Shown here piece after piece: positions 4,803 to 39,465 of a stretch of 41,820 nt of DNA; the first letter of the stretch is position 1; the number at the start of each line of letters is the position of its first letter. Source of the DNA: a virus. The notes beneath the pieces are model-generated. The model made no database searches. It was not told where the DNA came from and was given only the letters and a program-made list of their open reading frames with translations. The position numbers were made by a program, and so were the translations under genes. Where the stretch lies: positions 1 to 41,820 of IMG/VR virus record IMGVR_UViG_3300031787_000276; one strand, given 5' to 3'.

Positions 4803-4811
4803 GTAATAAAA

Positions 4812-5540: not shown

Positions 5541-5544
5541 TACG

Positions 5545-7410: not shown

Positions 7411-7430
7411 TAATTATAAAAAACAAAACA

Positions 7431-7993: not shown

Positions 7994-7997
7994 TACT

Positions 7998-8394: not shown

Positions 8395-8404
8395 AAACTA
8401 AAAC

Positions 8405-8671: not shown

Positions 8672-8673
8672 AT

Positions 8674-8817: not shown

Positions 8818-8822
8818 GGGCC
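8802..8822. terminator. Convergent hairpin terminator
   Basis: GCCCCTA at 8803-8809 and TAGGGGC at 8815-8821 form a perfect 7-bp stem around an A-rich loop. It ends the rightward replication operon (stop at 8817, inside the stem) and faces the leftward gene ending at 8831, so it probably works on both strands. Confidence 0.7.
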
Positions 8823-8830
8823 TAATTTAT

Positions 8831-9094: not shown

Positions 9095-9128
9095 TTTATA
9101 ATGTTTTTATTTGTTTTTAAATTTTTGG

Positions 9129-9482: not shown

Positions 9483-9516
9483 TTTTTTTTATTTTATTGT
9501 TTATAAATTGTTTCAA

Positions 9517-9524
9517 CAAATATA
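9517..9524 (-). promoter_or_regulatory. Candidate leftward -7 element
   Basis: The minus strand reads TATATTTG, a TAnnTTTG match, 35 bp before the start codon at 9482. No TTTG is found at the expected -33 position, and the leader would be longer than at the rightward promoters, so this call is tentative. Confidence 0.35.
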
Positions 9525-9557
9525 CTTAAAATTTAGTAATTTTTATTTTAAAAAAAA

Positions 9558-9606
9558 GTATTAAATTAATTAAATTAGTTCTACATTTGTATTAAATTAA
9601 TTAAAT
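9558..9606 (+). promoter_or_regulatory. Late-operon promoter flanked by direct repeats
   Basis: TACATTTG at 9582-9589 matches the Bacteroidota -7 consensus, and its G is 18 bp before the ATG at 9607. Two copies of GTATTAAATTAATTAAAT, at 9558-9575 and 9589-9606, lie 31 bp apart: one covers the -33 region and the other the start of transcription. No TTTG is present at -33, which suggests that an activator or repressor bound to the repeats controls the promoter. Confidence 0.5.
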
Positions 9607-10305: not shown

Positions 10306-10679
10306 AGCAAAAGGTAAAAGAATTAGAAAAATCAAATGCCTATTTAAGTGGCAAATTGGCTTATTATGAGCAAGATGGGGCAATTAAGCTTTATTATAGC
10401 TTGCAAAGAAAGGCTAATGAGATGGCAGAATTGCTTAATAGGATTAATTTGCTAGATATTGAATTGATTGATCCAAAAGATAAGTCATTTGAAAGATTGC
10501 AGAAGCTTTGGTCCGAAGCTGGCACAATTACTGAGTCTATTAGGGCATTAGAAATATCCGCAGGCATAAACCAAGAAGGAAAAGAAAGCAAAAAAGAGGC
10601 TGTCGTAATAAATAAAAGACCATTTTCACCAGAAAGTGTTGCTGATGAAATAGGTGAATTAGCAGGCAAACGCTCATAG
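10293..10679 (+). CDS. Candidate small terminase subunit (coiled-coil protein before TerL)
   Basis: A 128-residue protein ending one base before the TerL start codon. Its N-terminus is a strong coiled coil (LEQKVKELEKSNAYLSGKLA), followed by more helices (LLNRINLLDIELIDPKDKSF, LWSEAGTITESIRALEIS) and a Lys-rich tail. Small terminase subunits are short, helical and oligomeric, and usually sit directly upstream of TerL, which is the basis for this call. No DNA-binding helix-turn-helix is obvious, and crAss-like phages often lack a recognisable TerS, so this remains a candidate. Confidence 0.45.
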   Translation: MSELEQKVKELEKSNAYLSGKLAYYEQDGAIKLYYSLQRKANEMAELLNRINLLDIELIDPKDKSFERLQKLWSEAGTITESIRALEISAGINQEGKESKKEAVVINKRPFSPESVADEIGELAGKRS

Positions 10680-10680
10680 T

Positions 10681-12729
10681 ATGTACGAAAAAATTGAAAA
10701 AGGTTCCACGATTCACATTCAGGGATTAGATTGTAATCTCCCACCAGAAGGTTATGTTTTTAATATATTGACCAAACAGGTTGAGTATAGGGGTATTTAC
10801 CAAAGGTCCGATATTCAAACTGAGCAATATTGGAAAAGAATACCGCTTCCAAGCTGGTATGCTGATACCATGAAAGAATGGGATGAATACGATAAGAAGA
10901 AAAAAGATGATGCTCCAGAATTTTATGATGAAAAATTAGAGGAGTTTAAGAAACAGGAGTGGGATAGAAGATTGAATGGCTTTTGGTACATGAATAATGG
11001 TAAGCCTACCTTTTTAACAGGTATGCATTACTTGTATTTGCAATGGTGGAGTATAGATATTGGTTATCCTAAATTCAGGATTCCGGATTTAGAGAAGTTT
11101 TATTTTATGGACTATTGCATACAGGATCCATTATGTATGGGAATGTTGGAGGTTACAAAAAGACGTTTTGGTAAGTCCTTTGTGGCTGGTTTGTTTGTTA
11201 CAGAATATACTACCAGAACCAAAATGACAAATGGAGGTATTCAGTCTAAAACAGGATCTGATGCCAAGAAATTCTTTGCAAAGACGGTTGTAAATCCATT
11301 CAGAAGGCTTCCTAAATTCTTTAGACCTGAGTACGATATGTCTTTGGGTGTTAATCCAAAGTCAGAAATGCGTTTCCAAAAGACAAACGTAAGAGGTAAG
11401 AAGGCAGAGGATAATGTAGATAAAGATGAACTTGGTTCGGTTATTGACCACCAGTCTGCCGATACGGTAGCTTATGATGGACAGAAGTTGCATAGGTATG
11501 TTGCGGATGAGTGCGGTAAAACAACAGAAGTAAACGTTTATGACAGACATGAGGTTGTTCGTTATTGTTTACTGGATGATGAAGGTAAGGTTATTGGTAA
11601 GGCTTTATATACAACTACCGTAGAGAAGCTTACGTCTGAAAAAGATGGTGTTCAAGAGGCATTTAAGCTACTTTGGGAAGAAAGTAATCAGGAGAAAAGA
11701 CAAGACAATGGTAATACATCTAGTGGGTTGTATAGATTTTTCATGTCTGCAAAAAGAACAAGAAACTTTGATGATTTTGGTTTTCCAGATGAAGAAAAGA
11801 CTTTTTTGCAAATTGAAGCAGATAGGGAAACGGTTAAAAACAACCCAAGAGCATTATCGGCTCGTATTAGAAAAGAGCCATTAACGATTGATGAGGCATT
11901 TAGTACAGATGCCGATGGATGCATATTTAATGTAATGAATATAGCAGCAAGAGAGTCGTATTTAAAAGAAAATCCGGTATTAAAAAGGCATGTTATATTT
12001 TATAGAGATATTGACCAAACGGTAAAATGGAGAAACATAAACGATAAAGAGGAAGATTTTCATTGGGTTATCACTCAATTTCCACCTGTTGGAAAAGAGA
12101 ACAGTCATGTGTTTGATATTAGAACAAAAAAACCCGGTAGAACAGATGATGGCGCTATTGCAATTGATGGATACAGTAATAGTCAGGGCGGTAAATTTGG
12201 TTCAAAAGCATCGGCTTGGATTGGCAGAAGATATAACTTATTAGATCCTTCAAATACCGGTAAGGCAATAGGTCATCTATATGGTAGGCCCCATATTAAA
12301 GAAACGCTACATGAACAGGTGCTTTTAGCAGCAGAATATTACGGTTATCAAGCTTGGTATGAACATAATAGTGATGATTATCTTTCATATTTTAGGGAAA
12401 GGGGTAGAGTTGGTTATTTAGGTTCTTATCCAATTTCTACAATTGATCCTGCAAAAAGAGAAACAGCTGAGAGGTATAAGGGTTTTCCTACTACCCCATT
12501 TAGCCTTACAAAACAAGCTGATGTAGGAATTATGTATTTTGAATCACATATTGATTCTATAGATTTTGAGAATTTATTAGAGGATGCCAAAAAATTTGAT
12601 CCAAATAACAGAACAGACTATGATATTACCGTTTCTTTTTTGATGCTTATAGTTTGTTTAATGGAACCTGTTATTAAGCCTCCTAAAAGAGAACCTTTGG
12701 TAAAAAGCTATGTTCCTTCTTTTAATTAA
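10681..12729 (+). CDS. terL: Terminase large subunit
   Basis: A 682-residue DNA-packaging motor. An unusual Walker A, EVTKRRFGKSF (Lys at residue 165), is followed by Walker B HRYVADECGK (D276, E277), giving the N-terminal ATPase. The C-terminal half has nuclease-like features: GAIAIDGYSNSQGGKFGSKAS with an Asp expected to bind metal, and later YEHNSDDYLSYF. Residues 1-150 form an extended N-terminal region with Trp-rich segments (GMHYLYLQWWSIDIGYPKF), typical of large terminases from Bacteroidota podoviruses. It cuts concatemers and pumps DNA through the portal encoded next. TTTTAATTAATTAAAA, a perfect palindrome, spans its stop codon. Confidence 0.9.
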   Translation: MYEKIEKGSTIHIQGLDCNLPPEGYVFNILTKQVEYRGIYQRSDIQTEQYWKRIPLPSWYADTMKEWDEYDKKKKDDAPEFYDEKLEEFKKQEWDRRLNGFWYMNNGKPTFLTGMHYLYLQWWSIDIGYPKFRIPDLEKFYFMDYCIQDPLCMGMLEVTKRRFGKSFVAGLFVTEYTTRTKMTNGGIQSKTGSDAKKFFAKTVVNPFRRLPKFFRPEYDMSLGVNPKSEMRFQKTNVRGKKAEDNVDKDELGSVIDHQSADTVAYDGQKLHRYVADECGKTTEVNVYDRHEVVRYCLLDDEGKVIGKALYTTTVEKLTSEKDGVQEAFKLLWEESNQEKRQDNGNTSSGLYRFFMSAKRTRNFDDFGFPDEEKTFLQIEADRETVKNNPRALSARIRKEPLTIDEAFSTDADGCIFNVMNIAARESYLKENPVLKRHVIFYRDIDQTVKWRNINDKEEDFHWVITQFPPVGKENSHVFDIRTKKPGRTDDGAIAIDGYSNSQGGKFGSKASAWIGRRYNLLDPSNTGKAIGHLYGRPHIKETLHEQVLLAAEYYGYQAWYEHNSDDYLSYFRERGRVGYLGSYPISTIDPAKRETAERYKGFPTTPFSLTKQADVGIMYFESHIDSIDFENLLEDAKKFDPNNRTDYDITVSFLMLIVCLMEPVIKPPKREPLVKSYVPSFN

Positions 12730-12768
12730 TTAAAATTTTTATTAAATTCTGGAGATTTAGTATATTTG
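12720..12768 (+). promoter_or_regulatory. A/T palindrome and -7 element before the portal gene
   Basis: TTTTAATTAATTAAAA (12720-12735) is a perfect 16-bp palindrome followed by more T, and could be an operator or a weak terminator. TATATTTG at 12761-12768 matches the Bacteroidota -7 consensus. There is no TTTG at -33. The G is 19 bp before TTG at 12787, the same spacing as at other units, which argues for that start codon. Confidence 0.45.
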
Positions 12769-12786
12769 ACACAAAATATATTCAAA

Positions 12787-15183
12787 TTGGCAGAGAGTCC
12801 TTTATACATATCCTCGGCAAATAGTAGTGGACAGTCGCTTAAAGACTTCCAAATTACTACTGATGTAGCGTCTAAAAAAGATTATTTATACGGTAAAAAC
12901 GTTGCCCAAAATATCTATTCTACAATTTATGGTAACCAAACTTATTTTTGGTTAAGAAACAATAGATTTAGAAAAAACAGACAAATTGCTAACGGTAAAG
13001 TAGACATGAGTGTGTTTATGGACCGATTGGAAATGAATGGCAAAGCCAATTTTGTAAATATAAACTGGAAATCAATTATTATTGGTAATACTATTGTTGC
13101 TAGGTTGGTTGGTTCTTGGATGAGTCGTAGAGAAAAAATTACAGTTAATGCTAATGACACCGCATCTGCAATGTTAAAACAAAGACAAGCAGATGAGGCA
13201 GAATTTTTATACAGAAATAAAGAAACTCTTGCTCAATTACAGCAAGAATCTGGTGTTGAAATTATTCCTAAAGATACATTTGTTGCAGAAGATAAAGATG
13301 AATTAGATCAATGGATAATGGAGTTCAATCATTTGCCAGAAGAAATATTATACAGCATTGGTTGTAATAATGTTTTTGAAGCCAATGGCTGGAACGATGT
13401 TTTGAAACAAAGATTATTGCATGATTCAGCTGAGGTTGGATTAGTTTGTACATATACTTGGATGGATGAAGAAGGTGAAGTTCATGTTCAATGGATTAGA
13501 CCTGAAAATGCTATTTATTCATATTCTGATTTCCCTGATTTTAGAGATACGACTTATAGAGGTCACATTCTTTCAATGAAGATTAGTGAAGTAAGAGCAA
13601 GATATAGTAAAGCAGCAGGGGGTACACTTTCTGAAGAAGATATATTTCAATTAGCTCAATCATCAAAAGAGTATCAACTTACTGATAAGATTAAGTGGAT
13701 GCAAGATTGGAATGTCGCTTGGCTAAGACCTTATGATGAGTGGAATATTGATTTAGTTAATTTTGAAATTCGCACATTAGATTCTGATGGTTATACTGTT
13801 ACTAAAACTAAAAAGAATGGTAGCACTATTATCAAAAAAGGTAAGCCAGAAAAATTAGATGAAAATCAAGAATATTTAGAAGAGAAAAAGTGGAATATTT
13901 ATCATGGTGTTTATTGCCCAGTTACTCAAACAATGATTCATTGGGGAATTAAGAAAAACATGATTCGTCCACAAGATCCAAAAGAAATAGGCAACGCAGA
14001 ATTTTCTTATAGCTTTTATATGTATGATCCTTATGACATGCGTAACGTAGCTGTACCAGAAAAAATTGAAGAGCCTATTGAACAAATGATTTTAGCTAGA
14101 TTAAAGATACAACAACTTGTAGCTAAAATGGTACCGGCAGGTGCGGCAATTGATGTTGACGCATTACAGGAGCTTGACTTAGGTTTAGGTGATTCTGTAA
14201 AGCCTATTGATGTTCAAAAGATATGGGAACAAACAGGTAAACTTTATTATCGCGGTAGAGATGCTGAAGGTAATCGTATTCCTGTTCCAATTACAGAATT
14301 AGCTAATACAGGTTTTTCTCCTCAATTACAAGCTTTAATTCAGTTATATCAATTCCATTATCAAGTATTAAAAGATGAATTAGGTGAAGATCCTAATTTA
14401 ATGAACCAAGCTGCACAACCAAGAGTGGCTGCTTCTAATATTGAGGCTTCAAGAGTTTTAGCAAATAACGCTACTGAATATATGTATGATGCATATATCT
14501 ATGTAATGGAAGAAACTGCTAAAAAGGTGGCTTGTTTAATAAATAAAAGTGTTACACATGGTGCTAAAAAATATAGCGATTTATTAAAGGAAGAGCAGGT
14601 AAAGGACAGAAATTTTGTTGCTTCTATAAAAATGATGCCTGATGACGTTCAACTTGCTACATTGCAAGCAATGATGAACAATGCTATTGCGTCAAATCCT
14701 CAATTAGTTATTTACTTAGATCCATTTAAAGCAATGAGAATGGCTAAAGAAAATGTAGAACTTGGGGAATTGTATTTTAGACAAGCTCAAAAAAGATTTA
14801 TAAAAACCGAGCAAGAAAAAGCTATGGTTAATTCTCAGCAAAATGCAGAAGCTCAACAAGCGAGTATTCAATCTAAGATGCAGGCAGATAGCTCTCTTGA
14901 ACAGCAAAAGTCTTTAACAAAGGAAAAGGAAATAATTTTACAAGGTGTTTTTGATCTTGCAAAAGCAAATATTCCTGTACCAGCAGAACTTCAGACATTA
15001 GTTGCTAATATGTTACAGAACGTCACCGTCCCAATTGCTGTTCAAAATCAACAACAACAACAAGCATTAGCTCAACAACAGCAAGCTCAAATGGAGCAAA
15101 TGCAACAGCAAGAAATGGAACAAGGTTCTGAAGAACAACAAATGGAACCTGAATTACAAGAACAAATGGAAACACAACAATAA
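12787..15183 (+). CDS. Portal protein
   Basis: About 800 residues, directly after TerL. It has the features of crAss-like portals: an N-terminal arm, FWLRNNRFRKNRQIANGKVD, NFVNINWKSIIIGNTIVARL, a wing/stem region with helices (IEEPIEQMILARLKIQQLVA, AASNIEASRVLANNATEYMY), and a long Gln/Met-rich C-terminal barrel (EQMQQQEMEQ). Twelve copies should form the DNA channel at one capsid vertex. The start is uncertain because there is no ATG. TTG at 12766 is possible but lies inside the -7 box TATATTTG, so transcripts from that promoter would miss it; TTG at 12787 stands at the same distance from the box as the ATGs of other units, so I prefer it. Readthrough from TerL could still use 12766. Confidence 0.85.
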   Translation: MAESPLYISSANSSGQSLKDFQITTDVASKKDYLYGKNVAQNIYSTIYGNQTYFWLRNNRFRKNRQIANGKVDMSVFMDRLEMNGKANFVNINWKSIIIGNTIVARLVGSWMSRREKITVNANDTASAMLKQRQADEAEFLYRNKETLAQLQQESGVEIIPKDTFVAEDKDELDQWIMEFNHLPEEILYSIGCNNVFEANGWNDVLKQRLLHDSAEVGLVCTYTWMDEEGEVHVQWIRPENAIYSYSDFPDFRDTTYRGHILSMKISEVRARYSKAAGGTLSEEDIFQLAQSSKEYQLTDKIKWMQDWNVAWLRPYDEWNIDLVNFEIRTLDSDGYTVTKTKKNGSTIIKKGKPEKLDENQEYLEEKKWNIYHGVYCPVTQTMIHWGIKKNMIRPQDPKEIGNAEFSYSFYMYDPYDMRNVAVPEKIEEPIEQMILARLKIQQLVAKMVPAGAAIDVDALQELDLGLGDSVKPIDVQKIWEQTGKLYYRGRDAEGNRIPVPITELANTGFSPQLQALIQLYQFHYQVLKDELGEDPNLMNQAAQPRVAASNIEASRVLANNATEYMYDAYIYVMEETAKKVACLINKSVTHGAKKYSDLLKEEQVKDRNFVASIKMMPDDVQLATLQAMMNNAIASNPQLVIYLDPFKAMRMAKENVELGELYFRQAQKRFIKTEQEKAMVNSQQNAEAQQASIQSKMQADSSLEQQKSLTKEKEIILQGVFDLAKANIPVPAELQTLVANMLQNVTVPIAVQNQQQQQALAQQQQAQMEQMQQQEMEQGSEEQQMEPELQEQMETQQ

Positions 15184-15202
15184 AACTATAAAATAAAATA
15201 AA

Positions 15203-15550
15203 ATGGCAACGGTAAGCAAGCTCTTAATAAGACTTCAAAAATTTAGTTCTAAAATTAGTACAGTTGTAGATGCAACTGATTCTTTTAATGCTAATGGTAG
15301 TTTTTACCAAGATTTATCTGGCTGGGACTCAGCTGTAGTTCAAGTAGTAACTCCTTCTGCGGCAGTTAATTTTACCACAACGAATGATGATGGTGCAATT
15401 GAAGGTCAGTTATTGCCAGCTCCAGAAGTTCCAATTAACTGGGTTACTGTTCTAGGTGTTAATTTAACTACTAAAACAGACGTTTCATCAATTAATGCAA
15501 GTGGCATTGTGGCATTTGGCATTATTGGTAAATATTTAAAAATAGCTTAA
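15203..15550 (+). CDS. Small virion protein, possibly decoration or head fibre
   Basis: A 115-residue beta-rich protein between portal and scaffold: LIRLQKFSSKISTVVDATDS, then FYQDLSGWDSAVVQVVTPSA, VNFTTTNDDGAIEGQLLP and ASGIVAFGIIGKYLKIA. The sequence is dominated by small and hydrophobic strand-forming residues and lacks catalytic motifs. The position among head genes suggests a capsid accessory. I have no family assignment. Confidence 0.6.
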   Translation: MATVSKLLIRLQKFSSKISTVVDATDSFNANGSFYQDLSGWDSAVVQVVTPSAAVNFTTTNDDGAIEGQLLPAPEVPINWVTVLGVNLTTKTDVSSINASGIVAFGIIGKYLKIA

Positions 15551-15561
15551 AATAAATTAAA

Positions 15562-15825
15562 ATGGCAAGTTACGCATACGTTTTATCTAAAAATACATAT
15601 CCAACAGCTCAAGAAGCTTATAATGTTGGAGTTTTACAAGGAACCAGAATAGTTTATGCAACCACAGCAACTTTGACTAGTGCTAATATTCTATATGCTG
15701 AAAGTGATTTAATCCAACCAATTTACGGAAACGGTTCTGATTGGTATGGAGTTCAATTACTTACAAATACTGGTGTCAAGTATGCCATTACAATTGATGT
15801 AGATGGCTCTATAGTTATAGATTAA
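15562..15825 (+). CDS. Small unknown virion-operon protein
   Basis: An 87-residue protein with a Tyr/Thr/Val-rich, beta-prone sequence: MASYAYVLSKNTYPTAQEAY, LQGTRIVYATTATLTS, IQPIYGNGSDWYGVQLL, ending TIDVDGSIVID. It starts 11 bases after the preceding gene and ends 23 before the scaffold gene. It shares no clear pattern with the small paralogues at 8831-9482. A minor capsid or decoration protein is the simplest guess from position. Confidence 0.55.
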   Translation: MASYAYVLSKNTYPTAQEAYNVGVLQGTRIVYATTATLTSANILYAESDLIQPIYGNGSDWYGVQLLTNTGVKYAITIDVDGSIVID

Positions 15826-15848
15826 TAACGAAAAACAAATAAGCATTT

Positions 15849-17039
15849 ATGCTAGAAAATCAAGACATGTCAGCTCCAATAAAGCTGGCAGAAGGTTACA
15901 ATCCGTTTTCGGATGAAGATGTTGTACCACAAGTGCAACCGCAAGTAGAAGTAGCCCCTACTGCAAATGAAGAACAAAATGTTGACAATACAGCTAATTC
16001 ATCTCCGGATGCGATAGTTAGTGAGAATCAACAACAACAAACAGATTATTCTACTTTTAACCCAGATTCTTTTATTAAAGAAAGATTTGGTTTTGATACA
16101 GTAGATGAAGCTGAAACAGAATTTTTGAGATTAATTGAAGAAAGGGAGCAAACTCCACAATTTGATTTTTCTGATGATGTAAGTAGAACTCTTTTTGATG
16201 CAATTAAAGAAGGTAAGACTGATGATGTTTATCAAATTTTAAATGAACAAAAAAAACTTGATAAATTAACTAATTCGGAATTAACAACTGAAATTGCAGC
16301 TGAAATTGTAAAAACAAACATTCAAAACAAGTTTAAGGATTTAAGTGCGGATGAAGTTGATCTTTTATTTTATGATCAATTTTTCGTACCTTTGAAACCT
16401 GAACAAGGTTATGATGAAACTGATGAGGATTATGCTGATAAGTTAAAGACTTGGCAAGCACAAGCTGATTACACAGAGAAACGTCTGATGATTGAAGCTA
16501 AAGTGCTTAGACCAGAAATAGCAAAGTTAAAAAGTGAAATAAAACTACCAGATATTTATAATGAGGCCGGAAGGGAGGCGCAATATCAAGAGGAATTTGA
16601 ATATTTGCAACAAGCTAGGTCAATTTATGAAAAAACGCTTGATTCTGAATTTCAATCTTTTAATGGATTTAATGTTTCGGTTAAAGACGATGATGTTGAA
16701 ATACCGATTTCATTTAATGTAGCAGAGGATGAGAGATTAGCATTAAAGCAAGAACTATCAGATTTTGATGGCGAAGCTTATTTAGAAAACAGATGGTTTA
16801 ACGAGGAAGGAAAACCAAACGTAAGACAAATAATGGCCGACAAGTATGTTCTTGAAAATTTGCCTAGAATTTTGCAAAAGGTGGCTAATGAAGCAGCATC
16901 TCAAAGATTGCTTGCTCATTTAAAGAAGAGTGGTAACGTAAGCATTAACCAAACCCCCACTCCGCAAGGAACGGCTCCAAGTCTAAATCCAAATGCTGCT
17001 ATACAGGAGCAATTGGCTAATTGGGCTTTTAGTTCGTAA
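15849..17039 (+). CDS. Probable capsid scaffolding protein
   Basis: A 396-residue, strongly acidic protein placed directly before the major capsid gene, where scaffolds normally lie. It has a disordered Pro/Gln/Glu-rich N-terminus (residues 1-65), a helical middle (FDTVDEAETEFLRLIEEREQ, LTTEIAAEIVKTNIQNKFKD), long coiled-coil segments (EAKVLRPEIAKLKSEIKL, EYLQQARSIYEKTLDS) and a C-terminal tail with PTPQGTAPSLNP. High charge, coiled coil and low complexity fit a protein that shapes the procapsid and then leaves. No protease motif is visible, so how it leaves is unclear. The assignment rests on composition and position. Confidence 0.65.
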   Translation: MLENQDMSAPIKLAEGYNPFSDEDVVPQVQPQVEVAPTANEEQNVDNTANSSPDAIVSENQQQQTDYSTFNPDSFIKERFGFDTVDEAETEFLRLIEEREQTPQFDFSDDVSRTLFDAIKEGKTDDVYQILNEQKKLDKLTNSELTTEIAAEIVKTNIQNKFKDLSADEVDLLFYDQFFVPLKPEQGYDETDEDYADKLKTWQAQADYTEKRLMIEAKVLRPEIAKLKSEIKLPDIYNEAGREAQYQEEFEYLQQARSIYEKTLDSEFQSFNGFNVSVKDDDVEIPISFNVAEDERLALKQELSDFDGEAYLENRWFNEEGKPNVRQIMADKYVLENLPRILQKVANEAASQRLLAHLKKSGNVSINQTPTPQGTAPSLNPNAAIQEQLANWAFSS

Positions 17040-17087
17040 CTTAAATATTACCCTTGGAGAAGGTGTTAAAATAAAAAATTAAATATT

Positions 17088-18500
17088 ATGGCAGGGATAC
17101 CTACCTCTAATATTCTGCAACCGGGTGCAATATCACTCCAGTCCCAGAATCGTCAACTGATGGTTGACTTACAATTATTAACCCCACAGTACTATAAGCA
17201 GTACACTCAAAAGTACGGTAACGAAGATTTTACTTGGTGGTTAGCAGCTCATAGTGGCATGGAAGAAGTTAAAAACTTAAACTACTTCTGGTTTGAAAAC
17301 CGCGGTAAATTAATGCCGGGTGTTACAAACGAATCTACTGTAGCAGCAGGTGTTGGTGCAACTTTAACTTTAACTCTTGGTCAAGAAGCGTATTACAACA
17401 GTGGTACTCAATCTCCATTAAGATTAAAAGAAACTTTGCGTGTTGCTTCTTCTAACGTAGAGGGTGTTATCGTTTCAATTGATGATACAACTCCTTACGC
17501 TTTCACATTTGAAGTTGCTCCTAAGCAAACTAGTCAGCGTTTTGCTTCAGCTGGTGTAAACTCATTACTTGCTGGTGAGGTTTTATTATTTGGCGGTGAC
17601 GCTGATGCTGGTGAAGCTTCAACTCAAATCAATCCTTTAATCCAATTGGATCAAAGATATGATAACTATGTAACAGAAATTCGTGATGGTTGGAGCAATA
17701 CCGACTTAGCACAAATGGCTGAAACATATTATGAGTTCCCTGTATCTCCTGATATGGCTGCAAATGGTGCAACTGCATTTACATACAAAGGTATGTACAA
17801 AACACTTGTACGTTTCAAAAACAACGTAGAAGCTAAATTAATGCGTGGTAACTTACAAAACAATAGCGCTATTGATTCTAATTCTCAAGGTTCTGTAGGT
17901 ATCATCCCTAAAGTTGTTGCTGACGGTGAAACTGTTGGTTACACTCCGGGTACACTTGATATCGCTAAACTTCATGAGATTACTCGTATCATGGACGTTA
18001 ATGGTTGTGCTAAGCAATCTGCATGGTTAGCTGATATTTTCCAAAGACAAGACTTCAGTGATGGTATCTTCTCTGCATACCCTGCTGGTGCTTTCGTTTA
18101 TGGTCAAGGCGAAAAGTCAAAAGAAGCTTCTGTTGCTTATGGCTTCCAAGAAATCTTCATTGACGGTTACTTATTATCTGTTAAGAAGTACTCTCAATTC
18201 AACACTGAGGTTACAACTGGTTTAACTCCTAACGTAGATTACTTCCGTAATTTCGGTCTAATCTATCCAATGGGTGAAACTAAGGATGCAAAAACTGCTC
18301 AAGTTTACAAGAATATTACTATCATGTATCAGCAACCTCCGGTAGGTGGTACTGTTGGTAACGGTATTCGCGTATGGCAATATGGTGGTGGATCTCCTAA
18401 TCCAACAGATGGTACAATGACTAATCAAATCGCAATGATCACTTATCGTGGTACTCGCGTTTGTGCAGCAAATCAGTTTATCATCCTTCAAGGTAACTAA
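17088..18500 (+). CDS. Major capsid protein
   Basis: A 470-residue protein with the composition and length of HK97-fold capsid proteins of crAss-like and other Bacteroidota podoviruses. Features are an N-terminal arm (SNILQPGAISLQSQNRQLMV), WWLAAHSGMEEVKNLNYFWF, an A-domain-like region rich in Gly and Thr, the helix AKLMRGNLQN (spine-helix type) and a C-terminal part VYKNITIMYQQPPVGG. Its coding sequence uses more GGT, GCT and CGT codons than its neighbours, as expected of the most expressed virion protein. It follows the scaffold gene by 48 bases and is followed by a strong hairpin terminator, allowing high, separately tuned output. Confidence 0.85.
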   Translation: MAGIPTSNILQPGAISLQSQNRQLMVDLQLLTPQYYKQYTQKYGNEDFTWWLAAHSGMEEVKNLNYFWFENRGKLMPGVTNESTVAAGVGATLTLTLGQEAYYNSGTQSPLRLKETLRVASSNVEGVIVSIDDTTPYAFTFEVAPKQTSQRFASAGVNSLLAGEVLLFGGDADAGEASTQINPLIQLDQRYDNYVTEIRDGWSNTDLAQMAETYYEFPVSPDMAANGATAFTYKGMYKTLVRFKNNVEAKLMRGNLQNNSAIDSNSQGSVGIIPKVVADGETVGYTPGTLDIAKLHEITRIMDVNGCAKQSAWLADIFQRQDFSDGIFSAYPAGAFVYGQGEKSKEASVAYGFQEIFIDGYLLSVKKYSQFNTEVTTGLTPNVDYFRNFGLIYPMGETKDAKTAQVYKNITIMYQQPPVGGTVGNGIRVWQYGGGSPNPTDGTMTNQIAMITYRGTRVCAANQFIILQGN

Positions 18501-20877: not shown

Positions 20878-21150
20878 ATGAAACCAATTAGAGATTTTGT
20901 TTTAGTAAAACCATTTATGGCTGATGAAATTACAGAAGGCGGATTATTTATTCCTGAAGGATTCAGAGAAAGAAGTAGTAAAGCTAAAGTAATTGCTGTT
21001 GGTCGTGGAACTTCTAAAATAAAAATGGAAGCCAAAAAAGATGATTGCATTTTTCATATCAAGGGAGCAGGGGAGCCTGTTGTTGTAGGTAATGAATTGC
21101 ATTTTTTAATTCGTCAAAACGATATATTAGCTTATTTTTCAAATAATTAA
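20878..21150 (+). CDS. groES: GroES-like co-chaperonin (Cpn10)
   Basis: A 90-residue protein with the full Cpn10 layout: MKPIRDFVLVKPF as the first strands, a mobile loop EITEGGLFIPEGFRERSS whose GGLFIP corresponds to the GroEL-binding hydrophobic tripeptide region (GGIVL in GroES), KAKVIAVGRGTSK, a roof segment and the C-terminal LIRQNDILAYF. It should cap host GroEL, perhaps to admit the phage capsid protein, as gp31 does for T4. It is embedded between ring and tail genes, 12 bases after one and two before the next, so it is made with virion proteins. No GroEL gene is present. Confidence 0.85.
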   Translation: MKPIRDFVLVKPFMADEITEGGLFIPEGFRERSSKAKVIAVGRGTSKIKMEAKKDDCIFHIKGAGEPVVVGNELHFLIRQNDILAYFSNN

Positions 21151-29381: not shown

Positions 29382-32300
29382 ATGGCAGAAAATAAATTAG
29401 ATAATCAAGGTGGTAAGTGGGATAAATATGTGGTTAATGATAGTGAAAGTAAATGGGATAAATACGCTGTTCCTGAAACTGATTTAAAAAAAAAAGCCGG
29501 GAATTTAATATCTTCGGGTATACCATCACGATTACCAAACGAGCCTAATTTTTTACAGCAAGGTCAAAATGTGGCTTCGGGAAAGATTTTTACTGATATT
29601 AGTAAGTCTGTTCCGAAAACAACACTGAAAGAAGCTGCGATAAAAGATAAGAACAATAACAATAGTTATTTAGGCGCTCAGTGGAATAACGTAGTAGCAA
29701 GTGCGCAAAGATTAGCAGGTGGTGCAGCTTGGTTAGCTCAAAAATTTGACTCTAGTCCAGTTTCTAGGATACAGGAAGCTGTAGATAAAGCAGCTTCTAG
29801 TGTTACTGGTATAAATTATGAGGCGCAAAGAGAAAAAGAAGCAAGAGATAAAATTAGTAATTTTATTGGTAAAGCTAGATCTAATTCTTCTTCTAAAGAA
29901 TACGAACAAGGTTTAGCTGAAGGATTTGATGTAACAAATGGTATTGGTTTAGATGACATAAAAGGTCTTGGGGCCATTTTGCCATCAATGCTTGTGGATA
30001 TTGGGGCTGCTTCCGCAACGGGAGGCGCAAGCTTTGGTATTCAAGGGTATGATGATGCGTTGTCTATGATAGATAGTACCCCAGAAGGTAAATACATGAG
30101 CGAAACAACTAGAACTGCATTTGGTTTTGGTGGTGCTATTGTAGCTGGTGTTTTGGAAAAACTTGGTATGGATAATATACTTAAAAGTGGTACAGCTACT
30201 AAGTATGTTACATCTAAAATATTAAAGGAAACGGCAGATGAATTAGTTAAAAAAGGTGTAAAAGTCGCAGCTAAGGATTTTGAAAAAGCAGTTGCAAACA
30301 AAGCAACTCAAATGCTTACTAAAACGGCATTAAAAAACACTGTAAAAGCTGGTTCAAAAGCTGCATTATCTGAAGGAGCAACTGAAGCTACTCAGGAAGG
30401 TGCTATGGATTTGATTAAATTAGCTGCTAATCAATTAGAAGGTAGTGAAATATTTAATGAAGAAGAGCTGAAGAATACCGCAGCATCTAGGTATTTAAAC
30501 GCTGCTGCAATGGGTGGTATTTTTGGTGGCACATTAGGATCTATTGGATCAAGAACAAAAAATGTTCAGCAGCATATAGAAGATGAAGTAAAGAATGCTA
30601 AAACTCAAGAAGATATAGCTTCTATTGTTAATGAAATAAATGAAAATGTTAAAGATGGTACTATATCTGAAAACGATGCAGAAGTATTTAAATCAATAGT
30701 TGATGAAAATATAAATAAGCCAAGTACTTTAGAAATTCAAAATGAAAAAGAAACAAAGCTTTCAGAAATAGATGAATTTATAAATTCATTAGATAAAAGA
30801 GATAGATTATACAATGATAAATTAAATGAATTAAATAAAGAGAAAAATCAAATAATTTCTTTTTATGATGATTTATCAAAAAAATCTCAGAAAGATGAAG
30901 AAACATCTTTTGATGACGGTAAGGTTCCTACAGAAGAAGAGATGATCACAGAAGAGGTGACTCCTACAGAAGTTAAAGTAAAAGAAGAAGTTAAACCAAC
31001 TGAAGGAGAAGTAAAAGAAATTGGATCAGATATTATTAATAATACCGAAAGTAAAACATTGCTTCCAATTGAAGAAATAAATAATTTAAGAACTCAAAAA
31101 GAAACTGATTTAGCAACAGGTAATGCAATTGAATTAGAAAGGGATTTATTGAAAAATGGAATTAAAGAACCTTTAGTTGTAACTTATTACCCAAATGAAG
31201 GTAAAGCAAGACTTACAGATGGGCATAATAGATTAGATGTTGCTAAAGACATGGGAGCAGAAAATCTTCCAATTAGAATTGTTTATGATTATGGGGAAGC
31301 TCCATCAACAGCAAAGGATTTTGTATTGCCAAAAGAGGAAGTTAAACTAAGTAAAGTAACAGAAGAAGTTAAACCAACTGAAGTAAAAGAAGAGGTTAAA
31401 ATAGAAGAACCTGTATCAACACAAAAAGTTAAAATACCGGGTACTAAACAATCTAAGCCTATTCCACTATCAGATTTTACTTTAGGAAAAGAAGGGGGAA
31501 GGTCATTTACAAAAAGAGTAAAGAAAGATGAAGGAGGAGTAAGTGGTGTAGAACCATTGAATCAATTTAAACTAAACCAAGGAATGGATTCTTATGGTAA
31601 TCCATATCCTAGAGTTCATGTTATATTAGATAATGCAGATGCTGAAAAGTATCAAGCATTTTTTTCAGCTGGCGGTAAAAAAGTTGCTAAAAATCCTGAA
31701 TTTAGAGATGAAATAAATAAAATCGCTAAGGCAAACAGAAGTAAGACAGATGAGGTTGTATTAGATTTCAGAAATTCAGAAATTGATGCATTAACTAAAA
31801 AAGCAGCAGTTAAACCAACTGAAGCAAAAACAGAGCCTAAAGAAAAGAAAAAAATAATAAAAACAAAATCTGATATAGTAGCGGATGATTTATTATCTTA
31901 TTTAGGTATTGTGCCATCAGAGGTTAAGTTTTCTAAAACAACAGGTAAACCTGAGATTATTAAATCACCTGAAACTATACAAGGTGAGGTTATAGATCAG
32001 ATGAACAAAATGAATTTGTTTAATCAAGGTGTTGATTTAGATTTATCATCAACAACTAAAGAAAAAGTAGATATAGATGAACTAAACTCAAGATTAGATT
32101 ACCCATTAAAAAAGGTTGATTTTAAAGATTTTGAGGGCTATCCATTTATCTTTACAATATCTGATCAATTAAGAACTGGAGATGTTGTAAATCCAAATAC
32201 AGGACAAACTGTTACGGATTTAAAAGGTGGTATTGGTTTTAATGGTACTAAAGGTCATGAAAACATGGCTTGGGCAAATACCACTAAAGAAGAGGCAGAA

Positions 32301-34094
32301 AAATTGTATAATAATGCTGAAGATGTTTATAATTCAAATAAAGCATTATTTGAAAAAGCATGGGCGAATGGTGATTTACCAAGTGGTCAAATACCAATGG
32401 CTGTTGTTAAAATGGCTGAATCATCAATTCTATCTAATGAAGCTGTTTTCAGAACTGGTATTCAAAATGTAGAAACTTTACCTAAAAAGAATAGAAAACA
32501 AGCAGTTTCTAATATTGCTGAATCACTTAAATATAAAGTTAAGACAGAGTCTGATGCGTTAAAAAGAGGTACAGATGCTAATGGCAAAAGATATGCGCCT
32601 CTTACAATGGCAGCAAAAGAAAAGGTTGTATCTCAGTCTAAGAATATATTAAAAATTATACAAGAAAAGAAATATACTGACATTGTAGATTTATTAAAAG
32701 ATATAAAAATATTTTCCTTACCTGAAAGAGCAATTATTGTAAATCAATTTTTTTATGGTAGTCCAACAGCTGCTGGGGCAAAAGAAATTGATATTAATAG
32801 AAGTAAACCAAAAACAAAAGTATCAGTTGATTTAATTGGTAATGCTGATCCATCTTTAATTCATATTGGTAAGATAACAGATTTATTAACTGAACCTTCA
32901 ACTAAAAATGTGCCTAGCACTCACATTACTAGTATTGTAGGTGTAAAAGTAGCTAATAAAGTAGGAAAAACATGGGCTAAAGCAGGAGGACCTGTAGAAA
33001 CAACTCATCCTAATTATCCATATGGTGTAGAAGGTGGATCAATTGGTGTATTAGAGCAACCGGTTCACATGAAAGATGCATTTGGAGAAGCTTATGGAAG
33101 TGTATTAAGTATAATAACTAAAAATGAAGCAAAAAAAGCTTCTATATCAGAAGGAGCATCTTTTTCACAAGGATTACCAGTTCAAGCAGGATTATCTAAT
33201 AAAGTATTTAGTCCAGCTATTGCTAAAGGTAGATTAGATGCGGTAGATAAATTATCAGGATTTTTAAGGCAAGCATTCCCTACAACAACATTTTTTACAA
33301 CCCAAGAAGCTTGGCAATCAGCATTAGAGCAGCCAAATGTTAAAAAGCATTTAAAAGATGGTGATGTAATATATGCGTTTACTACAGATGGGAACGTTTA
33401 TATTAATCCTGATTTAAAGACAACAAAAGCAGCATTGCATGAAACAGGCCACATTTGGGCTGGGTTTGTTAAAGAAAATAATGCTCCATTATATAATAAA
33501 GGGTTGTCATTAGTAGAGGGTACAAATGAGCTAAAAAAGGCTATAGAACAATACGGAGATACCCCATTAGCAAGAGAAGAGGCTTTGATGGAGTTGATGT
33601 CATCTAAAGGTGATACAATTGTAAATGCATCTCAAAAAGCTAAATTTAAGGAGTGGTTATTATCATTATACAAATATATATCTGAGAATTTTAAATCTTT
33701 AATGAAATTGTCCCCTAAAGAAGTTGAAAATATAACTTTAGACAAGTTTTTAGAAGGTATGTTAGCGGATATATTATCAGGTAAAGAGCTGACTACCAAC
33801 AAAATAAAGGGTGAAACTAAGTTTTCAAAGGAATCTCAAGAAGATTCTATACGAAAGTTTATAGAAATACAAAGGGGGAAAGGATTAACGGATAATGAAA
33901 TTAGAGCAGGTATTCTAAAAGTAGCTGATCAAATAGGCTTAGATAAGTCAAAAATAAATGATTTATTTAAAAAAGAAACTAAAACAGAAATTGTTAATTA
34001 TAAAGATTTAAATAGAATTGAAAAAAGAAAGATAATTAATAGTAAATTTGATGAATTATTTAAAGAACTTAAAATAGAAAAAATATGTCCATAA
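29382..34094 (+). CDS. Large polyvalent virion protein with ParB-like domain and HExxH zincin
   Basis: A 1570-residue multidomain protein. N-terminus: two KWDKYxV repeats (residues about 12-33), then a helical region with a hydrophobic stretch (GAILPSMLVDIGAASATGGA) and a Glu/Lys-rich low-complexity zone. Residues about 555-640 form a ParB/Srx-like domain (LLPIEEINNLR, LLKNGIKEPLVV, LTDGHNRLDVAKDMG). Residues about 690-780 hold another globular region. A long central domain includes SDQLRTGDVVNPNTGQTVTD. Near residue 1353 is AALHETGHIWAG, a zinc metallopeptidase motif (H1353, E1354, H1357) with a possible third ligand in EEALMEL around 1398-1402. This matches phage polyvalent proteins, thought to be packaged and injected with the DNA to counter host defence. 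Its end overlaps the ferritin gene by 10 bases. Confidence 0.65.
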   Translation: MAENKLDNQGGKWDKYVVNDSESKWDKYAVPETDLKKKAGNLISSGIPSRLPNEPNFLQQGQNVASGKIFTDISKSVPKTTLKEAAIKDKNNNNSYLGAQWNNVVASAQRLAGGAAWLAQKFDSSPVSRIQEAVDKAASSVTGINYEAQREKEARDKISNFIGKARSNSSSKEYEQGLAEGFDVTNGIGLDDIKGLGAILPSMLVDIGAASATGGASFGIQGYDDALSMIDSTPEGKYMSETTRTAFGFGGAIVAGVLEKLGMDNILKSGTATKYVTSKILKETADELVKKGVKVAAKDFEKAVANKATQMLTKTALKNTVKAGSKAALSEGATEATQEGAMDLIKLAANQLEGSEIFNEEELKNTAASRYLNAAAMGGIFGGTLGSIGSRTKNVQQHIEDEVKNAKTQEDIASIVNEINENVKDGTISENDAEVFKSIVDENINKPSTLEIQNEKETKLSEIDEFINSLDKRDRLYNDKLNELNKEKNQIISFYDDLSKKSQKDEETSFDDGKVPTEEEMITEEVTPTEVKVKEEVKPTEGEVKEIGSDIINNTESKTLLPIEEINNLRTQKETDLATGNAIELERDLLKNGIKEPLVVTYYPNEGKARLTDGHNRLDVAKDMGAENLPIRIVYDYGEAPSTAKDFVLPKEEVKLSKVTEEVKPTEVKEEVKIEEPVSTQKVKIPGTKQSKPIPLSDFTLGKEGGRSFTKRVKKDEGGVSGVEPLNQFKLNQGMDSYGNPYPRVHVILDNADAEKYQAFFSAGGKKVAKNPEFRDEINKIAKANRSKTDEVVLDFRNSEIDALTKKAAVKPTEAKTEPKEKKKIIKTKSDIVADDLLSYLGIVPSEVKFSKTTGKPEIIKSPETIQGEVIDQMNKMNLFNQGVDLDLSSTTKEKVDIDELNSRLDYPLKKVDFKDFEGYPFIFTISDQLRTGDVVNPNTGQTVTDLKGGIGFNGTKGHENMAWANTTKEEAEKLYNNAEDVYNSNKALFEKAWANGDLPSGQIPMAVVKMAESSILSNEAVFRTGIQNVETLPKKNRKQAVSNIAESLKYKVKTESDALKRGTDANGKRYAPLTMAAKEKVVSQSKNILKIIQEKKYTDIVDLLKDIKIFSLPERAIIVNQFFYGSPTAAGAKEIDINRSKPKTKVSVDLIGNADPSLIHIGKITDLLTEPSTKNVPSTHITSIVGVKVANKVGKTWAKAGGPVETTHPNYPYGVEGGSIGVLEQPVHMKDAFGEAYGSVLSIITKNEAKKASISEGASFSQGLPVQAGLSNKVFSPAIAKGRLDAVDKLSGFLRQAFPTTTFFTTQEAWQSALEQPNVKKHLKDGDVIYAFTTDGNVYINPDLKTTKAALHETGHIWAGFVKENNAPLYNKGLSLVEGTNELKKAIEQYGDTPLAREEALMELMSSKGDTIVNASQKAKFKEWLLSLYKYISENFKSLMKLSPKEVENITLDKFLEGMLADILSGKELTTNKIKGETKFSKESQEDSIRKFIEIQRGKGLTDNEIRAGILKVADQIGLDKSKINDLFKKETKTEIVNYKDLNRIEKRKIINSKFDELFKELKIEKICP

Positions 34095-34579
34095 AGTCAT
34101 TACTTAGCCCCAACATGAAAAAGGGCATGCAAGATGCGGTATATGCAGAACTTTACCAATCTAATCTGTGGAAGAGCTTGGCTAATCAATTACAAAAGTT
34201 AGGGCTATTTGGTAGCCAGAAGTATTTCTTAGCGGAAAGCGCTGAGGAATTGACTCACTATCAGATGCACGTTGAGTTTATGAATGACATGGGTGACTGT
34301 GCTGACCTACCAAAAATTGATTCAGTTACCGATAAGGTGACAGATATTGGAGATGCCCTAGAGATTGGATACAATACTGAATTAGACGTATATAATCAAT
34401 ATAAGGACTTCTATGAGAAAGCCCAAGATGAAGATGTTTCTGTGGCTCAGTACATTTTACAATTCATTGAAATTCAAAGAAAAGCAGTAGGCCATTATGG
34501 TGATTTACTTGCTAAGTATAAAATAGCAGAACAAACTAAGGAAATCCTTGAATTTGATGAACATATATCTGACTTATAA
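34085..34579 (+). CDS. Ferritin-like protein
   Basis: A 164-residue four-helix protein with the ferritin pattern: MKKGMQDAVYAELYQSNLWK (E22), ESAEELTHYQMHVEFM (E55, H58), GDALEIGYNTELDVYNQY (E99) and QFIEIQRKAVGHYGDLLAK (E129 or Q131). The spacing E22-E55-H58-E99 equals that of E. coli FtnA (E17, E50, H53, E94), so the main ferroxidase ligands seem intact. The site corresponding to FtnA E130 seems absent. The protein would oxidise and store iron or bind DNA-protective cages, as Dps does. It lies within the virion operon between two giant internal-type proteins, overlapping the first by 10 bases and the second by one. Confidence 0.75.
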   Translation: MSIKSLLSPNMKKGMQDAVYAELYQSNLWKSLANQLQKLGLFGSQKYFLAESAEELTHYQMHVEFMNDMGDCADLPKIDSVTDKVTDIGDALEIGYNTELDVYNQYKDFYEKAQDEDVSVAQYILQFIEIQRKAVGHYGDLLAKYKIAEQTKEILEFDEHISDL

Positions 34580-37500
34580 TGGCACAAAACCCTTGTAAAT
34601 ATATTATTGAAATTAAGCCCGGAGAGTTCAAAGAAATGACCGAACCGGAGCTTAAAAGCTATCTTTTAACTCAAGATTTATCTAATTTAAAAACTATCCA
34701 AAATGCCATACAAGAGCGAAGCGCAGAGGAAAAAGTTTCACGTCCTAGAGGCACAGGGAAAAATATCACCGAAAGTAGTGAAGGAATACGATCAAGCCAG
34801 CAAAGGGCTGAAGCTACCGAAGAAGCTCAAAGCAATGAAGAAGCCATAAGAGGTATTACCAAGGCTGAAATTGAGCAAAGAAGATTAGAAAACGGATTGC
34901 CAGTAATTGATGGCAAAGTTGTTACTGATGCTGAAATTAAGCAACAAGCTGCTGATCAAATAGCAAATGGGTATGATTTTGATGCTTTGATTAGGAGAAT
35001 GGAGCAGGGTGAAGGTACAAGTGCTGTTGAGTCTGAAATATTAAAGATTTATGCAGCTACATTAGATAAGGCATTGGTTGAAGATCCATTCAATAAAAAA
35101 ATACAAAGGGATTTAGCTAGGTTTACAGAAGCTAAATTGATTTCTGCCGCTACTATGGGTAGAGATTTTAGGGCTTTACAAGGTACTGCTTATGCGCCAT
35201 TAGAACAATTACAAACACTTAGTGATTATGTTACAGTAGTAAGAGATGCTAATGGTGTAGATGAATTGACCGATAGCCAAATGAAAAAGGTTATTGAGGA
35301 TTATGAGAAAATACAAAAAGAAGTTGAAAAGTTAAAAAAAGAAAAGGAAGAGTTAGAAGATTTAAATGCAAAGATGTTAGCCGAACAAGAAATGGCTAAG
35401 ATTAATACTGAAGTAAAAAAAGAAAAGAAAGAAAAGGCTCCTAAAAAAGACTATAAAAAAGAAAGGGAAGATATACTTGAAAGCATAAAAGAAAAATGGA
35501 ATAGGGCATCAAAAGGTGCTGGCGGATTAACAGCAGTTCCATTTCCATTTTCTGCTCAATTAGTTGCCATAGCTCCTGATGTAGCAAAATTAGTTAAAGT
35601 TTATGCTGAAGATGGAGTTAGTAAATTAGATGACGCTGTTAATAAAGCTTATGATTTATTAAAAGATCAAATTGAAGGGATTACAAAAAAAGATATTGTA
35701 GATATAATTGCTGGAAAATACAAGGAGAAAAAAAATCAAGCTATAAATGAAGCCAAAGCAAATCTAGCAAATATAAATAAGGAAGCTAAATTAGCTTCTG
35801 AAATATATGATTTGAAATATGGTCCAAAAGTAGAGTTGCCAGAAAAAAAGCAGATTCAAAAAAATGCAGAAATATCTGCAAAAGAAAAGGAGCTTAGAGA
35901 ATTAAGAAAAGAATCTGGTTATTATGATGAATCTAAGTTAAAATCATTGATTGCTAGAAATGAGGCAAAAGCTGCTGAAATAAAAAGAAAAATTGAAAAC
36001 AAGGAGTTTGAACCTACTGAAAGACCTGAATCATTTATAGAAAATCCTGAACTAAAAAAGAAATATCCTTATTCGTATAATAAATACATAGACGGTCTAA
36101 ATAAGGTTGATGAAATGAAGCATGCATTTTTAATGGCTTCACAAAAGGATAGAATAGAAAAAGAAGGAATTCCCGGTAAAGCCAAGCAATTTGGTAAAGA
36201 GTTTTTAAATACAGTTATGGCTTTAAAAGCTGGTTTTGATAACTCTGGTGTATTTATTCAAAATGCTTCTGCAATGATGGATTTGGAATCATGGGGAGTG
36301 AAAATTAGAAAACAAAAGGGGAAGTCGGCATTAAATCCTGCTGCTTATAATTTTACTATAAGTAAAGAAAAACCTGCTTTACAGGCACTTAAATTTCAAC
36401 TTGCGGCAGCAAAAAGTGAAGCTGTACTTAGAAGAAGGTTAGTTGAAATATACGAAAACAAGCCTTTATGGAACATGATTGAAAAATCTAAACTTGATAT
36501 ATTAGATCCAAGAGGTTTTAAGACTAAATTAAAAGACGATGTTTTCGGTGAAAAGAACTTATTAGAAAGAGTAGGTGCTGATAAATATACTACTTCTCCA
36601 TTTGAAAGATTATTTGCTGGGTTTGGTAATGAAATGCGCGTTAGTTTATTTATAAATGGAGCGCAAGATTTAATGGATCAAGGTAAGACTATTGATAATA
36701 GTTTAAAGGATTATCAGGATTTAGCAAGTAGGGTTAATAACTTTACGGGAAGAGGTGAAACAATGTTTAAAAGCTCTAAAGGGTTTCTAAGCGCTGTATT
36801 ATGGTCACCTAAGTTATTGGCATCAACATTAAATAAATTAGGATTAAGTGACCTTGTTTCTAATAAGTTATGGGGTAAAAAAGATAAGAAAGGCAAACCT
36901 ATGGGGTATTATAGTAATATGAACCCAGAAGGTAGAGCAAAAGCAATCCAAGCTACTGTAAGAAGTTTATCAACAGTATTTTTAATTATGGCTGCTGCTT
37001 CTATGCAAGATGATGTAGAAGTAGATGCGGATCCAGAAAGTGTTACATTTGGTCAAATAAAAAACACTAAAACAGGTTGGTCTTTGAATTTATTAGGACC
37101 ATATAGTTCTGTTGTTAGATATTTAACTTTATTGTTAACAGCTACTAAAAAAGGAGTTACAGGAGAAACTAGAAAAGCTGATATAGTTCAGGAAAGTTAT
37201 AAGTTCTTTAGAGGTAAGGCAAATCCGTTCCTTGGAATTGGAGCTGACATGGTTACTAGAAAGACATTTACTGGTAAGCCTTATGACTACAGTAATCTTC
37301 CTTCAGATTTATTTGAACCATTATTTGTGCAAGATTTAAGAAAGTCTTATGATGCTACTGGTGCTGAAGCGTTTTTGTACGCTATTCCTACTTTCTATGG
37401 ATTAAAAATTCAAAATGAAAAAACATTTGATCAAAGGGATATTAAGTCATTATTGAACAATAATTTAAATTCATCCTCAATGGATAGATATCTTATGTCT

Positions 37501-37842
37501 AATTATAAGGATGGAGGAAGGAAAATAACAAAAAGTGAGTTTGATGAATTTGCTAAACAAAATGATGCTTTATTAAAGGAATTTATTGAAGTGATACATA
37601 AAGATGGCTTCCCTGTGACTGATGATAAAGGTAATATAGTTTATAAGAAAGTTGAGGGAGAAGGCCCAGATGTTGCTACAAAGCAAGAATTGGCTGATGC
37701 GCTTAGTAAAATTAAAAAAATTGCTACAAGAATAACTAAATTGGAGATGTTTGGTCAAAAAGAAGCAGAGGATCCGGGTGTTCAAGCTGATTTAAGGGAA
37801 GCTTGGGCTGAACTAGGAATTGGCGATAATGATGACGAATAA
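34579..37842 (+). CDS. Large internal virion protein candidate
   Basis: A 1087-residue protein whose start shares one base with the ferritin stop. The N-terminal half is charged and coiled-coil-rich, for instance KVIEDYEKIQKEVEKLKKEK (about residues 235-254) and KEREDILESIKEKW. The C-terminal half has hydrophobic helices near residues 795-812 (SLSTVFLIMAAASMQ) and 840-855 (LGPYSSVVRYLTLLLT), then GKANPFLGIGADMVTRKTFT and PYDYSNLPSDLFEPLF, a signature I associate with large internal/ejection proteins of podoviruses. It is probably packaged and injected, possibly forming part of a DNA conduit. No muramidase motif was seen. Confidence 0.55.
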   Translation: MAQNPCKYIIEIKPGEFKEMTEPELKSYLLTQDLSNLKTIQNAIQERSAEEKVSRPRGTGKNITESSEGIRSSQQRAEATEEAQSNEEAIRGITKAEIEQRRLENGLPVIDGKVVTDAEIKQQAADQIANGYDFDALIRRMEQGEGTSAVESEILKIYAATLDKALVEDPFNKKIQRDLARFTEAKLISAATMGRDFRALQGTAYAPLEQLQTLSDYVTVVRDANGVDELTDSQMKKVIEDYEKIQKEVEKLKKEKEELEDLNAKMLAEQEMAKINTEVKKEKKEKAPKKDYKKEREDILESIKEKWNRASKGAGGLTAVPFPFSAQLVAIAPDVAKLVKVYAEDGVSKLDDAVNKAYDLLKDQIEGITKKDIVDIIAGKYKEKKNQAINEAKANLANINKEAKLASEIYDLKYGPKVELPEKKQIQKNAEISAKEKELRELRKESGYYDESKLKSLIARNEAKAAEIKRKIENKEFEPTERPESFIENPELKKKYPYSYNKYIDGLNKVDEMKHAFLMASQKDRIEKEGIPGKAKQFGKEFLNTVMALKAGFDNSGVFIQNASAMMDLESWGVKIRKQKGKSALNPAAYNFTISKEKPALQALKFQLAAAKSEAVLRRRLVEIYENKPLWNMIEKSKLDILDPRGFKTKLKDDVFGEKNLLERVGADKYTTSPFERLFAGFGNEMRVSLFINGAQDLMDQGKTIDNSLKDYQDLASRVNNFTGRGETMFKSSKGFLSAVLWSPKLLASTLNKLGLSDLVSNKLWGKKDKKGKPMGYYSNMNPEGRAKAIQATVRSLSTVFLIMAAASMQDDVEVDADPESVTFGQIKNTKTGWSLNLLGPYSSVVRYLTLLLTATKKGVTGETRKADIVQESYKFFRGKANPFLGIGADMVTRKTFTGKPYDYSNLPSDLFEPLFVQDLRKSYDATGAEAFLYAIPTFYGLKIQNEKTFDQRDIKSLLNNNLNSSSMDRYLMSNYKDGGRKITKSEFDEFAKQNDALLKEFIEVIHKDGFPVTDDKGNIVYKKVEGEGPDVATKQELADALSKIKKIATRITKLEMFGQKEAEDPGVQADLREAWAELGIGDNDDE

Positions 37843-38952: not shown

Positions 38953-39465
38953 ATGAAATTAATTAAAGGAATGACTGACTATTTAATCACATTGGATGGC
39001 AGAGTATTTTCTTTGAAAACAATGAGATTTTTGAAAAATTTTGTTAAAAATGATTATGTATATGTTAAAATAGGGAGTAAATCGTATTTGGCTCACAGGT
39101 TAGTAGCTCAAACATATATTGAAAACCCTGAAAATAAAGCAACTGTAAATCACATTGATGGTGTCAAAACAAACAATTTATTGTTTAATTTGGAATGGGC
39201 TACCCCCTCAGAAAACATGAAACATGCTTGTGATACAGGTTTAAGAAAAATATCAGAAGCTTTAAGAGAAAGCGGCAGGATAGCTGCTGAAAGATTTGGG
39301 GCAAAAAATGGTTATGTATTTAAAAAAATTGTATTAGATACTGAAACAGGTGTCTTTTATGAAGGTGCTAAAGAAGCTGCTGATACTATTAATGTAAATG
39401 CAAAATATTTGTGGAGAAGATTGAATGGCGAGTTAAAAAATACAACAAAATTTAAATACGTTTAA
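38953..39465 (+). CDS. HNH homing endonuclease
   Basis: A 170-residue protein with a clear HNH module of the homing type: LAHRLVAQTYIENPENKATV then NHIDGVKTNNLLFNLEWATP and SENMKHA (catalytic His near residue 67, Asn near 75 and 78). A C-terminal NUMOD1-like DNA-binding part (ETGVFYEGAKEAADTINVNA, KYLWRRLNGEL) recognises the target site. Such enzymes spread their own gene among related phages. It is inserted between a tail protein and the fibre gene, leaving one base before the fibre's GTG. No intron is evident. Confidence 0.85.
   Translation: MKLIKGMTDYLITLDGRVFSLKTMRFLKNFVKNDYVYVKIGSKSYLAHRLVAQTYIENPENKATVNHIDGVKTNNLLFNLEWATPSENMKHACDTGLRKISEALRESGRIAAERFGAKNGYVFKKIVLDTETGVFYEGAKEAADTINVNAKYLWRRLNGELKNTTKFKYV

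Follow-up and report, generated by a model that had tools for sequence, protein, structure and literature searches.

The question raised by this locus is what a ferritin gene could do among the virion genes of a virus, where it is squeezed between two open reading frames (ORFs) for giant proteins. The stretch analysed here, hereafter the window, covers 41,820 nucleotides, positions 1 to 41,820 of IMG/VR record IMGVR_UViG_3300031787_000276. The gene occupies 34085–34579 on the plus strand, starts with ATG and encodes 164 amino acids; as the preliminary description had stated, it overlaps both neighbours, sharing 10 nt with the upstream 1570-aa ORF (end 34094) and 1 nt with the downstream 1087-aa ORF (start 34579). 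The same description had called the product ferritin-like, and Pfam, AlphaFold2 and Foldseek agree on that fold. The PF00210 Ferritin family matched at E=1.4e-12 (48.1 bits against a gathering cut-off of 24.5), and the top PDB sequence match was the Thermotoga maritima ferritin (1e-7), while with a profile of 25 phage sequences the ferritin matches in PDB rose to 1.5e-17 and extended through helix E. The AlphaFold2 monomer (mean pLDDT 90.6) contains helices at residues 9–38, 42–68, 88–114, 118–151 and 154–163, that is, a four-helix bundle followed by a short helix E, and Foldseek aligned it to the E. coli FtnA, Thermotoga, Archaeoglobus and Pyrococcus ferritins in PDB with TM scores of 0.90–0.93. 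On the NCBI ferritin equivalog model the phage ferritin scored 23 bits, far under the 178-bit cut-off.

Conservation was assessed over 62 sequences, comprising the window protein and 61 IMG/VR relatives at 44–96% identity, many of these records being near-copies. E22, E54, E55, H58, E99 and Q131 were invariant in 62/62, placing a glutamate in helix A (E22), an ExxH pair in helix B (E55/H58), a glutamate in helix C (E99) and a glutamine in helix D (Q131). The spacing E22-(33)-E55-(3)-H58-(41)-E99 is identical to that of E17/E50/H53/E94 in FtnA. The four ligands first proposed from a single sequence have held up across the family. With these unvarying ligands and a median dN/dS of 0.14 over 103 pairs, the diiron ferroxidase site is kept by selection, and ligand conservation across 62 homologues argues that the ferritin call is not due to chance. 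Judged by predicted fold and ligands, the product is probably a 24-mer-type ferritin and should be ferroxidase-competent.

Several related families were considered and set aside. Dps proteins have no helix E and an intersubunit site, whereas the phage protein has helix E and ligands within one subunit. Besides a haem-binding Met, a bacterioferritin would require a second ExxH in helix D, where Q131 and A134 are found instead; position 137 is variable among the 62 sequences (H, Q, E, T or A), and the bfr model matched only one relative (L061, E=0.08). The fold, ligand spacing, helix E and length are the same as in prokaryotic non-heme ferritins (E. coli FtnA, T. maritima, A. fulgidus), but the phage protein is only 18–25% identical to them. 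In PDB alignments its Q131 corresponds to FtnA Q127, and the site B/C carboxylates E126, E129 and E130 are replaced by I130, K133 and A134 (the last in 60/62 sequences), for which reason the bacterial FtnA subtype was also rejected. Since the site-C ligands and E130 of FtnA are absent, turnover may differ from that of FtnA; helix 4 retains Q131 alone and there is no site C, which is the Q/A arrangement of eukaryotic H-chains. A single pattern scan found no close relative in bacterial genomes, and on this basis a recent pick-up from a host is probably not the origin of the gene.

The window terminase is ~28% identical to those of the Flavobacterium elemo phages and also matched Cellulophaga and Tenacibaculum phages, and these relatives make a Bacteroidota host likely. 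No close relative was present in the isolate-phage collection, where only short faecal clones and some Staphylococcus-phage records matched, and those weakly. The ferritin carriers are uncultured, short-tailed-phage-like viruses, probably of Bacteroidota. Other genes in the window include a GroES-like co-chaperonin (Cpn10, 3.9e-16) at 20878–21150, among virion genes, and, past the downstream giant, an HNH endonuclease gene at 38953–39465, whose position and strand vary between relatives (14893–15462 on the minus strand in L002).

All ferritin genes lie within the virion operon and are co-directional with it, a pattern shared by at least two phage lineages, and they fall into three arrangements, whose counts are not independent events because many records are near-copies. 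In arrangement A (25/62), to which the window belongs together with the distant lineages G061 and G062, the gene lies between two giants, and in 25/25 cases its start falls within the end of the ORF that precedes it. In arrangement B (34/62), which belongs to another phage lineage, it lies between the portal and scaffold genes; the giant of these phages is a single ORF where whole contigs were read, and their capsid protein shows no detectable similarity to that of the window. In arrangement C (3/62, and also G037) it follows just after a single giant. The expectation of the preliminary description that the gene belongs among virion genes is therefore borne out in every case, its picture of giants on both sides only in 25 of the 62. 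Its proposed conserved order of zincin protein, ferritin and internal protein does not survive: 34 ferritins are flanked by portal and scaffold genes, giants beside nearly identical ferritins can be unrelated, and among the upstream giants examined only three (those of the window, L004 and L017) contain HEXXH, on which ground a zincin–ferritin linkage was rejected. Phage ferritin-like genes were already known, and BFVD contains an uncultured marine phage protein labelled "putative bacterial non-heme ferritin"; among the papers searched, mostly open-access, no report was found of a virion-operon ferritin gene lodged inside a split polyvalent giant, and the virion-operon placement appears to be new.

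The gene is optional. It is carried by 22 of the 47 records of the capsid-protein clade, some of which are fragments, and G001 has no ferritin although its capsid protein is 99% identical. Being dispensable even between near-identical phages, ferritin is not required for particle building. Such differing presence, together with several insertion points and, in one arrangement, a promoter-like element of its own (TATATTTG at -26/-27 in L010, L011 and L013), could point to a passenger, a gene for host benefit or oxidative stress that inserts wherever the late operon has a tolerant gap and is unlinked to virion assembly. We consider this unlikely, as the gene was never found outside the virion operon among >60 phage records and the ferritin tree requires at least four changes between arrangements, all of them moves within that operon.

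The upstream giant (1570 aa, 29382–34094, plus strand) and the downstream giant (1087 aa, 34579–37842, plus strand) correspond to the N-terminal and C-terminal parts of the one giant that ferritin-less relatives possess, and ferritin-less genomes of lineage I mostly have one giant at the position of the giant–ferritin–giant block of the window. The relation is collinear: residues 923–1202 of the upstream giant of G021 align to 755–1033 of the single giant of G024, and residues 36–1008 of its downstream giant to 1062–2066, whereas the last ~55 residues of the former and the first 35 of the latter have no counterpart there. By these alignments the ferritin-flanking giants are the two halves of one larger protein of the ferritin-less relatives. 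The giants are almost wholly different between some phages whose ferritins are 85–96% identical (window and L001–L009), forming a hypervariable cargo between conserved ends.

The giants had been described as injected-type. This fits best in L062, where the giants beside ferritin contain InPase (1.8e-47), ART-PolyVal (1.9e-21) and LPD39 domains and the locus has the make-up of a polyvalent locus, with giant multidomain proteins bearing known polyvalent domains beside virion genes (Iyer et al. 2017). Polyvalent-domain proteins are described there as thought to be injected with DNA, and the main text of that paper, in which 131 domains are counted, makes no mention of ferritin (PMC5512222). The window's own giants matched none of the polyvalent Pfam families and offer only a zincin-like HETGH motif at residue 1353 of the upstream giant and, in the same protein, a weak, sub-threshold ParB-like match (E=0.053). 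Elemo phage NC_055854 and Tenacibaculum phage Gundel_1 both have, at the equivalent position, a giant with the annotation of a structural protein. From the L062 domains, the HETGH motif and these annotations together, we infer that "injected-type" is a fair label for the window giants.

The two ends that meet at the ferritin gene are conserved. The C-terminal tail of the upstream giant (33996–34094, plus strand, ending in KFDELFKELKIEKICP before the stop; alignment, HMM scan and codon-position test) overlaps the ferritin start codon with its end, and the N-terminal header of the downstream giant (MAxNPCKYIIEIKPGEFKEMTEPELKxYLL, 34579–34698, plus strand; alignment and HMM scan) has a dN/dS of 0.12–0.20. 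Tail and header HMMs were found at 11/11 giant pairs with ferritin between them, several of these pairs being in the training set and G061 and G062 having one end listed by the scan and the other seen separately, and in 0/21 other genomes (16 ferritin-less relatives and 5 with ferritin elsewhere); the Fisher p for the association is about 8e-9 assuming independence, which the genomes violate. Searches with single headers returned only contigs already known as ferritin-bearing. On this distribution, a role of the two peptides as ferritin-docking or packaging tags was first favoured and was then weakened by Leptolyngbya phage Lbo-JY46 (L290, PP438436.1). This genome has no ferritin anywhere, and of its two adjacent giants (4341–17247) the second carries the header at residue 1 (E=9e-7) and the first has a tail-like end (ENFQTIIEQIK...VNC). 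Given this ferritin-free cyanophage, tail and header probably belong to the giant–giant junction and are not ferritin tags. Tail conservation is further confounded: in the ferritin phages the ferritin ATG overlaps the codon of its invariant Cys (A|TGT) and largely dictates that residue, and its NFD codons contain TAnnTTTG.

The latter motif bears on how the gene might be transcribed. A Bacteroidota -7-like element, TAAATTTG, lies inside the tail codons at 34043–34050 on the plus strand, 42 nt ahead of the ferritin ATG, and is a candidate embedded promoter. Over 1535 ORFs of relatives, TAnnTTTG peaks 24–27 nt before ATGs, while over the whole window the Bacteroidota promoter motif is not enriched (63 found versus 66 expected). 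TAnnTTTG of the Bacteroidota -7 type occurs in the window at 193, 4578, 9582, 19540 and 37870, which is 25–27 nt before the starts at 218, 4605, 9607, 19565 and 37896. By these sites, the virion unit that includes ferritin would end before 37870.

A second gene, conserved among these phages, is overprinted at the junction of the two giants. It encodes 48 aa (beginning MPYKSEAQRKKF) at 34703–34849 on the plus strand, in the +1 frame of the downstream giant. Among relatives it stands alone after the giant or ferritin in 27 records and is nested in the giant in 23, some records having been entered twice, as locus and as genome; when nested it is always in the +1 frame (23/23). Its dN/dS is 0.07 in its own frame versus 1.95 in the giant frame, values which indicate strong purifying selection on the 48-aa frame and not on the giant frame there. 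Some of what looks like conservation at the N-terminus of the downstream giant is due to this overprinted gene.

Neighbours that are solely of the virion operon, whether injected-type giants or portal and scaffold, raise the possibility that the protein itself ends up in the particle, the cage or its subunits being packaged in the capsid with the giants and either shielding packaged DNA from iron and peroxide chemistry or being delivered to the next host. We hold this only tentatively. The protein has no evident packaging tag, the gene is optional, the tail and header peptides apparently also occur in a ferritin-less cyanophage, and a 12-nm cage cannot pass the portal channel intact. Foldseek gave weak matches (E 0.02–0.1) of the ferritin model to three BFVD proteins annotated as "Prohead protease" from uncultured phages (A0A6J7WIS1, A0A6J7XDU5 and A0A6J7WPK9), which suggests Dps-like domains fused to head proteases; ferritin-like folds inside such proteins are circumstantial support for packaging, as is the ferritin-fold protein gp217, detected by mass spectrometry in a particle preparation of the Vi01-like phage Sajous1 and assigned to a proposed tail operon (PMC10892097). 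That phage is of a different family, and the fold of gp217, on which the comparison with the window ferritin is made, was assigned by Phyre2 only. A true virion component, an iron-oxidising cage whose gene repeatedly settles between head or internal-protein genes to be co-made and co-packaged with the giants, is possible but not the reading we prefer. The literature hypothesis of a "ferrojan horse", in which virion-borne iron would serve receptor-based entry, has been applied to the same phage with a ferritin-fold virion protein, where TonB and FeoB mutants were no different (PMC10892097). Here the ferritin gene adjoins head or internal-protein genes and not tail fibres, so that this reading seems very improbable for the window.

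We favour instead, at a probability of roughly 0.55, a ferritin made late from the virion-protein transcript and assembling into a cage that detoxifies iron and peroxide. The computations establish the fold, the invariant site, purifying selection, the repeated placement in the virion operon and the start-codon overlap. On the favoured account, ferritin would be synthesised on the same transcript as the virion proteins, and its subunits would form an iron-mineralising cage while particles are being constructed; the cage could use O2 or H2O2 to oxidise Fe(II) and then store the iron, so that phage DNA, both replicated and packaged, would suffer less Fenton damage and iron would be withheld as the cell dies. 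The position in the break between the giant halves would provide late timing and coupled translation in the window. Set against this account are the optional nature of the gene, the absent site-C ligands and E130 of FtnA, and the promoter-like element that ferritin has to itself in L010, L011 and L013. A role in oxidative stress has been proposed for other phage-borne members of the ferritin superfamily, namely Dps and Mn-catalase of the gut "Gratiaviridae" and Dps of Lactobacillus phage (PMC8008677, PMC6669764), and the gut phages offer a precedent (PMC8008677). These are of the Dps and catalase families and not ferritins, and the Lactobacillus phage dps gene is near replication genes, not in a virion operon (PMC6669764).

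The presence of the ferritin gene among virion genes points to iron being handled by these viruses during particle building or after it. Phage iron biology has consisted mostly of hypotheses, on iron in tails and on oxidative-stress genes, and a conserved ferritin recurring in the virion operon yields a specific claim, open to testing, on how iron is handled during assembly. Beyond that, the locus presents a defined junction at which giant injected-type proteins appear to be split and joined, and which can accept a foreign gene.
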